A stretch of 20,456 nucleotides of DNA from a virus. The notes beneath the pieces are model-generated. The model searched no databases. It worked only from the letters and a program-made list of their open reading frames with translations, and had not been told where the DNA came from. The stretch spans positions 1 through 20,456 of the IMG/VR virus record IMGVR_UViG_3300027486_000247; one strand, 5' to 3'. Made by a program: the position numbers and the translations under genes. Of this stretch, positions 13,835-18,069 are shown piece after piece. The stretch's first letter is position 1. Each line of letters starts with the position of its first letter.

Positions 13835-15117
13835 TGTCTGAAGCACACAGCTACTGGTCAGCGTCCGGGTTCGCCCGCGACGTGGCCTGCCCCGGCAGCA
13901 AGATCCTGTCCGAAGGCTTGTCCGACAGCGTTGGGGTGCCGGCAGCTTGGGGCACCGTGGCGCACGACTACGCTGACACGTACCTCAAAGCGGGCACACC
14001 CATGCCCGACACGCTGATCGGTGACACGCACAGCCAAGACGGTCACACCATTGAGGTAGACCTTGACATGGTCAACTGCGTCAACACGTACCTCGACAAG
14101 GTGCGCGAGATGACAGCCACCGCCGACTTGGTTGAGTCTGAGCAGCGCGTCAACTACGCCCAGTGGCTCAACGTGCCGACTGAACGCGCATGGGGAACGC
14201 TGGACATGTGCGCGGTGTTCATTGAGGCGCGTGAGCTGATGGTGGGCGACCTCAAGACCGGGCGCGGTGTCGAGGTCTCGGCTATCGAAAACGAGCAGAT
14301 GATGCTGTACGCCGCTGGCAAGTTGCTGGTGCTCGACGAGCTGGGCATCGACATCGACACCATCCGGCTGGTCATTTTCCAGCCCCGCATCAGCAGCGCG
14401 CCGAGCGAGTGGACGATCAGCCGCAAGGATCTGGAGGCGTGGCTGCTCGGTCGGGCACGTTCTGCCGTGGCCACGGTCGAGAACGCACGGGCCACGCTCG
14501 GGCATGCCGAGTGGGATGCGACGTTCTTGCGCCCCGGCGACCACTGCCGCAGCAAGTTCTGCAAGGCCCGCGCAACGTGCCCGGCTTTGCGCGCTGAGGT
14601 TGCCGGGGACGTCTTTGAGGTTGCGCCAGCCACGCCTGACGATTTTGTCAACGTGTGTGCGGCTGACGCCCAAGTGATCCTTGATACAAAAAAGGACGAC
14701 GCAGGTTGGATCGCAGCCGCACTTGCCAAGGTCGACATGATCGAAGATTGGTGCAGCGAGATCCGCAAAGAGGCGTTTCGCCGTCTGGAGTCGGGTGAGT
14801 CTGTACCCGGCTTCAAGCTGGTGCAGGGTAAACGCGGTGCGCGTCAGTGGACCAGTGCCGCAGATGCCGAGGCGACGCTAAAGAAAATGCGCGTCAAGCA
14901 CGACCAGATGTATGACTACAAGATCATCTCGCCCACGACAGCCGAAAAGCTGGCCAAGGCCGAGGTCATCGGACCACGTCAATGGCCTGCGTTGCAGGCA
15001 CTCATCACCCAGGCAGAGGGTAAGCCATCCGTGGCCCCTGTGTCTGACCCCCGCCCAGCGATTGAGGTTCAGCCAATCGATGACGCGTTTGAAATCCAAG
15101 CTGACGACATTTGTTAA
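13834..15117 (+). CDS. DUF2800 RecB/Cas4-like nuclease
   Basis: 427 aa from the ATG at 13834. It matches the phage DUF2800 family of PD-(D/E)XK nucleases. In order: HSYWSASGFARDVACPGS at the start, AWGTVAHDYADTYL with His44, RAWGTLDMC with Asp124, LMVGDLKTGRG with Asp139 and Lys141, and the conserved Gln155-Tyr159 of ENEQMMLYAAG. Cysteines at 20, 238, 243 and 249 (CRSKFCKARATC) resemble the iron-sulphur cluster ligands of RecB/AddB-Cas4-type nucleases. It is expected to process DNA ends during recombination-dependent replication. It lies directly upstream of the SSB gene, as in related phages, and overlaps the preceding stop by one base. Confidence 0.88.
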   Translation: MSEAHSYWSASGFARDVACPGSKILSEGLSDSVGVPAAWGTVAHDYADTYLKAGTPMPDTLIGDTHSQDGHTIEVDLDMVNCVNTYLDKVREMTATADLVESEQRVNYAQWLNVPTERAWGTLDMCAVFIEARELMVGDLKTGRGVEVSAIENEQMMLYAAGKLLVLDELGIDIDTIRLVIFQPRISSAPSEWTISRKDLEAWLLGRARSAVATVENARATLGHAEWDATFLRPGDHCRSKFCKARATCPALRAEVAGDVFEVAPATPDDFVNVCAADAQVILDTKKDDAGWIAAALAKVDMIEDWCSEIRKEAFRRLESGESVPGFKLVQGKRGARQWTSAADAEATLKKMRVKHDQMYDYKIISPTTAEKLAKAEVIGPRQWPALQALITQAEGKPSVAPVSDPRPAIEVQPIDDAFEIQADDIC

Positions 15118-15134
15118 ACCACAGAAAGCAAATC

Positions 15135-15725
15135 ATGAGCACACAAACCACAACTCGTTTCCGCCTGGACAATGTTCGCGTCGACTGGCCTGAGCTGTTT
15201 GTCGGCAAGCAGTTCAACGGCGAGGGCAAGTTCCGCTGCGGCGCTACGCTGATCCTCGGCCCTGACCATCCGCAGCACAAGCAGGTCAACGCTGCCATCG
15301 AAGAAGCTGCCAAGGTCAAGTTCAAGGACAAGGCCGCCGCCGTGCTGAAGGTGGCCCGCGCCAAGGACAACATCTGTCTGCGCGACGGTGACATGAAAGC
15401 TGCCAAGTCCGAGGGCTACGCTGGCAACTTCTACATCTCGGCCAACTGCGCAGGCGGTGACACCGAGGCAGCATGCGCAAAGCCGACCGTGTACGACGCC
15501 CAGCGCAACAAGGTCACTGAGGCCAGCAAGAACCCGATCTATCGTGGCTGCTACGTCAACGCACTGATCGAGGTGTACGCAGACAACCGCTTTGGCGAGG
15601 GTGTGTTCTGCAAGCTGGTCGGCATTCAGTTCAACCGCGACGGCGATGCGTTCGGCTCGGCACCTGCCCGCGCTGACGACTTCGACGATGTGGCCGAGGG
15701 CGCTGACTCTAGCGACTTCGTCTAA
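15135..15725 (+). CDS. Single-strand DNA-binding protein (DUF2815/Enc34-type)
   Basis: 196 aa from the ATG at 15135 (MSTQTTTRFRLDNVRVDWPELF); the frame is open to 15111 but the internal ATG fits the family start. The sequence matches the DUF2815 family, known as Enc34_ssb from the Enterobacter phage Enc34 SSB. Typical elements are KFRCGATLILGPDHP, RDGDMKAAKSEGYAGNFYISAN and NPIYRGCYVNALIEVYADN, which build an OB-fold. The last 20 or so residues are acidic (DDFDDVAEGADSSDFV), as in other phage SSBs that use the tail to contact partners. It should coat single-stranded DNA during replication. It stands 17 bases after the nuclease gene. Confidence 0.9.
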   Translation: MSTQTTTRFRLDNVRVDWPELFVGKQFNGEGKFRCGATLILGPDHPQHKQVNAAIEEAAKVKFKDKAAAVLKVARAKDNICLRDGDMKAAKSEGYAGNFYISANCAGGDTEAACAKPTVYDAQRNKVTEASKNPIYRGCYVNALIEVYADNRFGEGVFCKLVGIQFNRDGDAFGSAPARADDFDDVAEGADSSDFV

Positions 15726-15990
15726 GGGTTTTATGGGACGGTGCCTTTGGGGGTTCCCGAGGGACGATCACGCCGCCCCACCCTACTTTGGGACCCAGCA
15801 CCTTTAACCGTCTAGCGACCCGTTGACCGGCTCCATAGTCGACGATGGTAAGAAGCCACTGCATGCACGCCAATGCCGAGCCCCTCAGGCATCACTTGGC
15901 AGGCGCCTACGACATACCGGGCTGGGTGGAAACGATACCCCGGTCTATGCAGTGGAAAGGGTCGCACCCCTTAACATTTGAAAGTGTGAG
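15726..15990 (+). ncRNA. Structured leader/candidate RNA upstream of DNA polymerase
   Basis: No convincing gene fills this 265-bp gap. By eye it pairs extensively. GGTGC (15740-15744)/GCACC (15798-15802) continues as TGGG/CCCA and TCCC/GGGA. GCGACCC (15815-15821) pairs with GGGTCGC (15959-15965). CCACTGCAT (15856-15864) pairs with ATGCAGTGG (15947-15955), and this last stem closes a three-way junction with GCCAATGCC.../GGCA...TTGGC (15869-15900) and ACCGGG/CCCGGT (15916-15944). The polymerase start has only a weak ribosome binding site next to this structure, so a regulatory leader is plausible. A DNA-level origin is the main alternative. I recognise no known riboswitch or ribozyme. Confidence 0.55.
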
Positions 15991-18069
15991 ATGACCATCC
16001 TGTGGTTCGACTGTGAAACCTACTCAGAGTGCGACCTCAAAGCGCACGGCACACCACGGTACGCCGAACACGAGAGCACTGAGATCACTGTGGCGCAGTG
16101 GGCTGTCGATGATGGTGAGCCGGTGGTTTTTGACGCTACAGACGATGAGCGCATGTACGTCGTCGATCAGGAACTAGTCCACTTACTTCTTGACCCAACC
16201 GTCACGGTTGTTGCTCACAATTCCATGTTCGACCGCACGCTGGTGCGCAAGTGCTGGGGTATCGACGTGCCGCGTGAGCGCTGGTACGACACGATGATTC
16301 AAGCCATGGCCCACGGCCTGCCCGGTTCGCTCGACAAGATCGGCGGCATCGTAGGGCTGGCAGCGGATGAGGCCAAGGACAAGCGCGGGCGCCAGCTCAT
16401 CCAGATGTTTTGCAAACCACAGCCGCGCACCAAGAAGCGCAACACACGACAGACGCACCCCGAGCAGTGGGCCGAGTTCTTGGAGTACTCGCGCCAAGAC
16501 ATCGTAGCCATGCGTGCGATCAGCAAGAAGCTTCCCAACTGGAACTACAAGCCAGGGGCGCCCGAGCTGGCCTTGTGGCACCTGGACCAACGCATCAACG
16601 ACCGAGGGTTCGCCGTCGACGTTGACCTTGCGCGCTCGGCCATTGAGGCCGTGGCGGAAGAACAAGCGCGCCTCAAACAGTTGACCATTGAAACGACAGG
16701 CGGCGAAGTGTCCTCGCCATCAAAGCGCGATCAACTGTTAGCGCACATTCTAATGGAATACGGCGTGAGCTTGCCGGACATGAAAGCCGACACGCTCAAG
16801 CGCCGACTGGAAGACCCCGAGCTGCCCGAAGCCGTCAAGCTGTTGCTGTCCATTCGCTTGGAGGCAACCAAGACCAGCACGGCCAAGTACAAGGCCCTGG
16901 TCAATGCCACAAGCAGCGACCACCGGCTGCGCAACACCTTGCAGTTTGCCGGTGCCCAGCGCACCAGCCGATGGGCTGGGCGGGTGTTTCAGCCGCAAAA
17001 CATGCCCCGGCCCGACATGGAGCAGGACCAGATCGACATCGGCATTCAAGCGCTCAAGCAAGGCTGTGCGCCTCTCGTGTTTGATGACGTCATGCGTCTG
17101 ACCGCCAACACCGTGCGGGGGTGCATCGTTGCACCGCCTGGTAAGAAGCTGGTCGTGGCTGACTTGGCCAACATCGAAGGCCGGGGGCTGGCGTACCTTG
17201 CCGGCGAGGCGTGGAAGATCCAAGCCTTTCGGGACTACGACGCAGGCACAGGCCCCGACCTCTACAAACTGGCCTACGCCCGCTCGTTCAACGTGCAGCC
17301 CGGTGATGTCACCAAGGGCCAGCGCCAGATCGGTAAGGTTATGGAGCTGGGTCTAGGGTACGAGGGCGGCGTGGCTGCGTTCTTGACGTTCGCTGCCGTT
17401 TACCAGATGGACCTTGACGACTTGGCCAAAGCCGTGTGGGCGACAGCCAGCAAAGACGCCATCGATGCCGCACAAGGCATGCTCGCGTGGACCAAGAAGA
17501 AACGCCGCAGCACGTTCGGCTTGAGCGATGAGGTGTACGTCGCTTGTGAGGTGCTGAAGACGGCATGGCGCACCGCGCACCCGGCCACGACCACGTTGTG
17601 GGAGAAAGTTGGCGACGCGGTGCTGCTTGCGATTGCCAACCCCGGCGAGGCTTTCCGCGTGCGCCAGTTGGTGGTGCGCCGTGACGGTGCTTGGCTGCGC
17701 GTGCGCCTGCCGTCGGGTCGATACCTTTGCTACATCAACCCAAAGGTCGAGAGCAAGCAAATCTCCTACTCAGGCGTGAACCAGTACACCCGCCAGTGGG
17801 ACCGCATCAAGACCTACGGCGGCAAACTGGTCGAGAACATCGTGCAAGCCTGGGCGCGTGACGTGTTGGCCTACAACATGGCACCCATCGAGGGCCAGGG
17901 CTACGAGATCGTGCTCACCGTTCACGACGAACTGCTGACCGAAACCCCTGACACTCCCGAGTTCAACGCCGACACGCTCGGCGATTTGATGTCAACGGCC
18001 CCGCAGTGGGCTGCTGACTGCCCGCTGGCTGCGGCTGGCTTTGAAACTTACCGCTACCGGAAAGACTGA
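15991..18069 (+). CDS. DNA polymerase I-like (family A) with 3'-5' exonuclease
   Basis: 692 aa. The N-terminal exonuclease has WFDCETYS (Asp7, Glu9), VVAHNSMFDR (Asn77, Asp81) and EYSRQDI (Tyr166, Asp170). The polymerase domain has motif A VADLANIEGRGLAYLAGE (Asp391, Glu396), motif B RQIGKVMELGLGYEGG (Arg445, Lys449, Tyr457) and motif C TVHDELL (His645, Asp646, Glu647). All catalytic acids are present. The length is typical of the phage T7-like polymerases that work without the bacterial 5'-nuclease domain. It should copy the phage genome together with the SSB, the DUF2800 nuclease and the primase-helicase. The preceding region is strongly structured, and the site upstream (AAAGTGTGAG) is a poor ribosome binding site. 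Confidence 0.96.
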   Translation: MTILWFDCETYSECDLKAHGTPRYAEHESTEITVAQWAVDDGEPVVFDATDDERMYVVDQELVHLLLDPTVTVVAHNSMFDRTLVRKCWGIDVPRERWYDTMIQAMAHGLPGSLDKIGGIVGLAADEAKDKRGRQLIQMFCKPQPRTKKRNTRQTHPEQWAEFLEYSRQDIVAMRAISKKLPNWNYKPGAPELALWHLDQRINDRGFAVDVDLARSAIEAVAEEQARLKQLTIETTGGEVSSPSKRDQLLAHILMEYGVSLPDMKADTLKRRLEDPELPEAVKLLLSIRLEATKTSTAKYKALVNATSSDHRLRNTLQFAGAQRTSRWAGRVFQPQNMPRPDMEQDQIDIGIQALKQGCAPLVFDDVMRLTANTVRGCIVAPPGKKLVVADLANIEGRGLAYLAGEAWKIQAFRDYDAGTGPDLYKLAYARSFNVQPGDVTKGQRQIGKVMELGLGYEGGVAAFLTFAAVYQMDLDDLAKAVWATASKDAIDAAQGMLAWTKKKRRSTFGLSDEVYVACEVLKTAWRTAHPATTTLWEKVGDAVLLAIANPGEAFRVRQLVVRRDGAWLRVRLPSGRYLCYINPKVESKQISYSGVNQYTRQWDRIKTYGGKLVENIVQAWARDVLAYNMAPIEGQGYEIVLTVHDELLTETPDTPEFNADTLGDLMSTAPQWAADCPLAAAGFETYRYRKD

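Follow-up and report, generated by a model that had tools for sequence, protein, structure and literature searches.

Results

Organization of the ssb-polA interval

The stretch of DNA that was analysed (the window) is a virus record of 20,456 bases (IMG/VR IMGVR_UViG_3300027486_000247, positions 1 to 20,456), whose left part carries structural genes on the minus strand, including a head-tail connector (Pfam PF12236), and whose right part carries a replication module on the plus strand in the order DUF2800, ssb, gap and polA. The product of ssb is an Enc34-type ssDNA-binding protein and belongs to the DUF2815 family, which was shown to be T7 gp2.5-like (PMC5686142). The ssb stop at 15725 and the polA ATG at 15991 are separated by a non-coding gap of 265 nt, which is composed of two independent RNA modules, i.e. 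a bulged hairpin (module A) and a triple-pseudoknot RNA (module B). The features of the locus are as follows.

15111..15725, plus strand: ssb, Enc34-type (DUF2815) ssDNA-binding protein, 5' neighbour of the RNA (Pfam PF10991, E 9.6e-31)
15734..15780, plus strand: module A, bulged hairpin (tip CCTTTGGGGGTTCCCGAGGG, 3' bulge; fold -24.5 kcal/mol, z -1.5)
15787..15967, plus strand: module B, complete triple-pseudoknot RNA core (37.4 bits, E 3.6e-7 with the held-out covariance model R1; 56.7 bits with model R2, window included)
15790..15792, plus strand: f, 5' strand, GGG here and GCGGG in most members, forms pseudoknot 1 with f' of the hairpin d loop (f/f' 94.7% paired, 49 distinct sequences)
15793..15799, plus strand: a, ACCCAGC, forms pseudoknot 2 with a' of the hairpin e loop (cognate duplex above all 37 non-cognates)
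15807..15812, plus strand: P2 5' strand ACCGTC, partner at 15844-15849 (family P2 93% paired, two-sided changes in 6 of 6 pairs)
15815..15821, plus strand: b, GCGACCC within the P2 loop, forms pseudoknot 3 with b' (91.4% pairing of b with b'; CG-to-GC and AU-to-GC exchanges)
15844..15849, plus strand: P2 3' strand GATGGT (family covariation)
15850..15855, plus strand: linker J2, AAGAAG, with conserved, unpaired A and AG positions (conserved unpaired columns)
15856..15864, plus strand: stem c 5' strand CCACTGCAT (stem c 93.7-96.6% paired; two-sided changes in 8-9 of 9 pairs)
15869..15900, plus strand: hairpin d, GCCAA/TTGGC and TGCC/GGCA, loop CCCC at 15881-15884 containing f' (covariation, f/f' test)
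15916..15944, plus strand: hairpin e, ACCGGG/CCCGGT, loop containing a' and a conserved AA (covariation, a/a' test)
15921-15927, plus strand: a', GCTGGGT in the loop of hairpin e, its first G shared with the end of the stem (a/a' duplex test)
15947..15955, plus strand: stem c 3' strand ATGCAGTGG, pairs with CCACTGCAT
15959..15965, plus strand: b', GGGTCGC, partner of b (P2 loop; b/b' pairing test)
15980..15984, plus strand: GAAAG, weak Shine-Dalgarno-like site 5' of polA, common to many relatives (comparison of downstream sequences)
15991..18069, plus strand: polA, family A DNA polymerase of 692 aa (Pfam PF00476, E 8e-13)

The stems that the initial annotation had named are all present, namely the bulged hairpin at 15734-15780, the pairing of GCGACCC with GGGTCGC, and the 9-bp stem CCACTGCAT/ATGCAGTGG around two hairpins. 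The idea of a single leader that pairs nearly end to end had to be given up, since the hairpin at the 5' end forms a module of its own and the remainder adopts the triple-pseudoknot fold. What had been described as a 7-bp "long-range stem" is indeed paired, but it is not a plain stem, because its 5' strand lies inside the loop of another hairpin and the pairing is thus a pseudoknot; two further pseudoknots (f/f' and a/a') had been overlooked.

The recurring layout of module B was found by reading ssb-polA gaps side by side, the sequences of which are very different. Common to the members is the order of f, a, a linker, P2 with b in its loop, a second linker, stem c around hairpins d and e, and finally b'. 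The result is a three-way junction, formed by the 9-bp stem c together with hairpins d and e, which is locked by three pseudoknots, and this architecture is unusual for an RNA in that the loops of two hairpins are joined by one uninterrupted 5' strand, and the loop of a third hairpin captures the 3' end. Nearly all members have a motif of about 145-165 nt, whereas it reaches about 181 nt in the window and in one relative (L010), and the boundaries of helices d and e differ between subtypes. In the window itself, f/f' amounts to only about 3 bp. Strongly conserved unpaired positions number only about 10 in the family alignment, which is fewer than would be expected of a small-molecule aptamer.

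Two additional pairings were considered and dropped after inspection by eye. As a universal switch, a' might pair locally with the 5' side of hairpin e, but such pairing was seen in some subfamilies only; the CCUCC in linker J1 might serve the polA start as an anti-Shine-Dalgarno sequence, but no consistent partner was seen.

Comparative support for the fold of module B

The folding energy of the single sequence does not distinguish the interval from shuffled sequence (265 nt, z -1.06, 28 of 200 shuffles equally stable), which contradicts an expectation of the initial annotation, and the same applies to the core of module B (z -1.58, not significant). On the minus strand, 189 of 200 shuffles were at least as stable, i.e. 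the fold is no better than shuffled there either. Folding energy was therefore not used as evidence for the RNA. A single-sequence descriptor search was only weakly discriminating and was replaced by covariance models.

The covariance model R1 was built from the nested stems only, with the window absent from training, and it returned a single match in the window, at 15787-15967 with the score listed above, whereby the E-values rest on short calibrations. In a plain MAFFT alignment of 26 members from which the window was left out (A3), 81.7% of the cells were paired, compared to 61.7% after shuffling and 37-50% with slid partners, and two-sided changes were found in 40 of 46 pairs; for stem c, the respective values were 96.6% and 8 of 9 pairs. 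Since the structure columns of A3 were picked from parses of the same sequences, the held-out match and the tests on a further alignment (A4) weigh more.

Only the nested stems were used in fitting alignment A4, so that pseudoknot tests on it are free of fitting bias. In A4, 93.2% of the f/f' and b/b' cells were paired, compared to at most 51% when the partners were slid, with two-sided changes in 7 of 10 pairs. For a/a', the cognate duplexes reached a mean score of 18.4 versus 11.1 for non-cognate duplexes, the best of 2000 permutations being 13.6, and the ACCCAGC/GCTGGGT pair of the window outscored all 37 non-cognates. An APC-corrected G statistic over all column pairs of A4 placed predicted pairs at each of the first 17 ranks (16 nested and one pseudoknot pair), followed by other pseudoknot pairs at ranks 19, 21 and 33 and by pairs between strand a and the hairpin e loop at ranks 22 and 32. 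All three pseudoknots are thus supported by comparative sequence evidence.

In the best-aligned helices, G.U pairs outnumbered A.C mismatches on the plus strand by 48 to 15, which favours the plus-strand RNA over a DNA structure as the selected molecule. From the covariation we conclude that selection has favoured the folding of the plus-strand RNA of the ssb-polA interval as one compact domain. As its own refutation test, the initial annotation had named a folding energy no better than shuffled sequence together with a lack of covariation in homologues; only the energy half of this nearly holds, whereas covariation is decisively present.

Distribution among related phages

The homologue set comprised 41 viral contigs from a polymerase search and, partly overlapping with these, 80 viral contigs from a polymerase alignment, as well as 17 loci from bacterial genomes. 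Over 99 loci (710 kb), R1 gave 52 matches, all of which lie on the polA strand and within the ssb-polA interval; the five weakest (E 0.008-0.66) were accepted partly on the basis of their position. Among 50 records that were scanned whole, 25 contain one highly significant copy and 25 contain none, and one of the 25 carriers shows an additional, marginal second match (E 0.08). In total, about 50 related uncultivated phages carry module B, with one copy each, which always lies on the coding strand between ssb and polA. The RNA is therefore single-copy and strictly tied to the ssb-polA interval of one replication module, DUF2800-ssb-RNA-polA.

Two more contigs with the same context were found by a DNA pattern, and a pattern search for one subtype gave no match. 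In a sample of about 400 genomes from the order to which the genome of locus L102 belongs (Ramlibacter, Burkholderiales) and in one of about 400 genomes from its phylum, the same two carriers were found. One of the two was new, a prophage with a polymerase of 43% identity, in which the order ssb, RNA, inserted ORF and polA is kept. DNA searches revealed no similarity of the window to named phages or plasmids, and the RNA is absent from the polymerase regions of the six named phages tested (BPP-1, vB_EcoM-606R2, BcepC6B, SR18, Acinetobacter phage 4316 and 37P2). On the polymerase tree, presence and absence of the RNA require 10 state changes, at least five of which are forced by well-supported branches, and judging from this tree the RNA appears to be ancestral in the main clade with several repeated losses.

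Neighbouring elements and distances to ssb and polA

In 24 of 47 genomes, the RNA starts at most 13 nt after the ssb stop, and in the remaining ones it starts at least 56 nt after it, with a module A-type hairpin or an ORF in between. In about half of the genomes, ssb ends only about 5 nt 5' of strand f. The next start lies between 2 and 182 nt from the 3' end of the RNA, and this variability implies that a simple block of the ribosome site cannot be universal. The initial annotation was right in placing the structure in front of the DNA polymerase gene, but the distance to the polA start is not fixed, and a hairpin, an HNH gene or another ORF may intervene. Many other relatives have a U-rich sequence and GAAAG between the RNA and polA. 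In one group (L002-L005, L011 and L077), the polA start lies 2-6 nt past the end of the model, directly after b', and a recognisable Shine-Dalgarno site is missing; initiation at polA may depend on the RNA fold in these phages.

The tip of module A occurs in 10 contigs (the window, L011, L017, L019, L020, L067, L068, L087, L096 and L116), is confined to the ssb-polA interval, may precede or follow module B and is carried by unrelated outer stems. It recurs as CCTCTGGGGGTTCCCGGGGGAG plus a 3' bulge ending in CAC, with a compensatory change in the tip stem (CCGCUGGG/CCCGGCGG). Module A may represent a second RNA motif that moves between positions.

Intrinsic terminators are present in 13 of 27 intervals without the RNA versus 7 of 49 intervals with it (p 0.002, phylogeny not corrected for), and in the latter seven they lie upstream of the RNA. 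RNA-less relatives with a strong terminator at the same place include L001, L008, L021, L027, L049, L051, L053 and L061, among others. In the interval of the window, neither a GC-rich stem abutting a U run, as in an intrinsic terminator, nor a consensus promoter was found. One subtype (L013, L022, L033, L052, L088 and L098) has a conserved hairpin, CCCCGGAAAGACGGGG, directly 3' of the RNA, the stem of which varies while its loop GAAAGA is constant, and which is sometimes followed by a U run; this terminator-like hairpin is a possible expression platform in this subtype.

Insertions of HNH endonuclease, methylase and other ORFs were observed on either side of the RNA (L012, L014, L016, L050, L054, L065, L068, L069, L073, L074, L087 and L126), and the ssb-polA interval looks like an insertion hot spot. 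At about 2540-2640 of L014, an interval hairpin has an interior that is similar to the T arm of a tRNA (GCGGGTTCAACTCCCGC), with CACCTTCACCA at its end, and ARAGORN called no tRNA there. In Bordetella phage BPP-1 (L127, 1200-1300), ssb is separated from the next gene by a terminator and then a long inverted repeat (GCTTTGGCTGGGGC/GCCCCAGCCAAAGC), and the 5' arm of the repeat overlaps the T run of the terminator, as in environmental relatives.

Discussion

Relation to known RNA classes

The initial annotation had described the leader as highly structured and of no known class, and both parts of this statement were borne out, the first by covariation. In the Rfam search that it had proposed, neither the window nor any of 38 loci (18 and then 20 more), of which 36 carry the RNA, matched one of the 4227 Rfam 15 families at gathering score; sub-threshold matches looked like chance and were dismissed. 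Searches for tRNA and tmRNA were likewise negative. A prior description of the RNA was not encountered in the literature searched, the coverage of which excludes preprints and most subscription journals. The family is accordingly new as a family with respect to Rfam 15, while its mode of action may be of a known kind.

With regard to its context, a related case is the DUF2800 RNA motif, which is associated with the same phage gene family, DUF2800, and lies upstream of this gene in Firmicutes. Module B differs from it in being located downstream of ssb in Burkholderiales-linked phages and in having no Rfam match. The terminators and inverted repeats of relatives, including Bordetella phage BPP-1, occupy the same place between ssb and polA, but these are simple hairpins, and BPP-1 is devoid of the triple-pseudoknot RNA. 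A riboswitch would require a conserved, aptamer-like fold in an mRNA; such a fold is present in module B, which, judging from its position, would be part of an mRNA.

In T4, both the SSB and the polymerase bind a folded RNA in their own message, resulting in autogenous control (PMC3014915). The gene 32 leader pseudoknot and the gene 43 operator of T4 and RB69 resemble the system described here in that phage SSB and polymerase genes, structured message RNA and a pseudoknot are used (PMC3014915). The T4 operators are small, i.e. one pseudoknot and one hairpin of 16-18 nt, respectively, and are located at the ribosome site of the gene (PMC3014915), whereas module B comprises 155-180 nt with three pseudoknots and lies between two genes, 2-182 nt from the next start and often separated from it by a hairpin or ORF. 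Only in the type represented by L002-L005, L011 and L077 is it positioned at the ribosome-binding site of polA. By analogy, module B possibly works like the T4 operators, without being a member of that class, given the differences in size, position and architecture.

Proposed function and alternative explanations

Phages generally need ssDNA-binding protein in much larger amounts than polymerase. The presence of terminators in RNA-less lineages, together with the frequent abutment of the RNA to the ssb stop, suggests that the output of ssb and polA is separated at the level of the transcript, and the fixed ssb-polA interval argues against a free-standing RNA acting in trans. The reading that we prefer, and which we hold with about even confidence, is that the RNA acts in cis, as an autonomous domain of the ssb-polA transcript, to uncouple the polymerase from SSB output, and that it is probably gated by a partner. 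The fold between the cistrons would lead to transcription attenuation, or to cleavage or stabilisation of the message, and the output of polA would thereby become independent of that of ssb. As for the bound partner that probably gates the fold, phage SSB or polymerase would be the obvious candidate by analogy to T4 gp32 and gp43, followed by a nucleotide. Where ssb stops about 5 nt before f, each ribosome that completes ssb would be expected to open strands f and a, and folding would in this simple way be linked to ssb translation.

Alternatively, module B could be a stable RNA that is processed from the message, or transcribed from a promoter inside ssb, and that acts in trans or as a scaffold, similar to ROOL and GOLLD. 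Its autonomous fold, the variable distance to both genes, the tolerance of insertions on both sides and the single copy per genome are all in line with such an RNA, and ROOL and GOLLD are multi-pseudoknot phage or prophage RNAs of unknown function as well (PMC12286853). However, these comprise about 660 to over 800 nt and often lie near tRNA islands (PMC12286853), whereas module B measures about 155-180 nt, lacks an Rfam match to ROOL, GOLLD or OLE and is confined to the ssb-polA interval, away from which it was never found, a linkage that would be needless for action in trans. Moreover, where the ssb stop lies about 5 nt upstream, no space is left for a promoter outside ssb. We therefore consider a stable RNA unlikely.

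The frequent start of the RNA right after the ssb stop and the higher frequency of terminators in RNA-less lineages would also fit a structure that merely makes or protects an mRNA end, either as a 3' stabiliser of the ssb mRNA or as an RNase-resistant domain, without any gating. For this task a plain hairpin would be sufficient, and three conserved pseudoknots with conserved junctions would seem to exceed the need, which makes this explanation quite unlikely.

A self-cleaving ribozyme that separates the ssb and polA messages would tolerate the variable distances, and the interlocked pseudoknots and conserved unpaired A residues are reminiscent of compact catalytic RNAs. Arguing against it, there is no match to an Rfam ribozyme, and an invariant cleavage-site sequence was not found 5' of f. 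Neither does the strand order correspond to the HDV-like nested double pseudoknot (P1-P2-P3-P3'-P1'-P4-P4'-P2'), because stem c encloses both hairpins d and e, with a' in the loop of e. We regard a ribozyme as improbable.

The location in a replication module and the single copy could point to an element acting at the DNA level, for example a replication origin, or to an RNA primer that starts replication. The excess of G.U over A.C indicates selection on the plus-strand RNA, which argues against a DNA element but would be compatible with an RNA primer; neither a strand-symmetric structure nor a turn in GC skew marks the site, and the independent losses do not fit either, so that we consider this very improbable. 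Finally, chance folding of a GC-rich spacer, to which the non-significant single-sequence energy might have pointed, is refuted by the held-out model match and by covariation throughout, and its probability is negligible.

Within the preferred reading of a cis-acting, partner-gated domain, it is conceivable, though we put this forward only tentatively, that module B represents a new class of gated regulatory RNA that senses the SSB or polymerase of the phage, or its nucleotide pool, and sets the SSB-to-polymerase ratio. According to a review from 2010, the T4-type gene 32 pseudoknot was possibly the sole viral pseudoknot known at that time to act in translational autoregulation (PMC3014915). 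If the gated reading is true, module B would be a case of viral pseudoknot control of a replication gene that is far more elaborate than the T4 gene 32 pseudoknot, and the strict linkage to ssb and polA makes the setting of the SSB:DNA polymerase ratio in phages a testable question.
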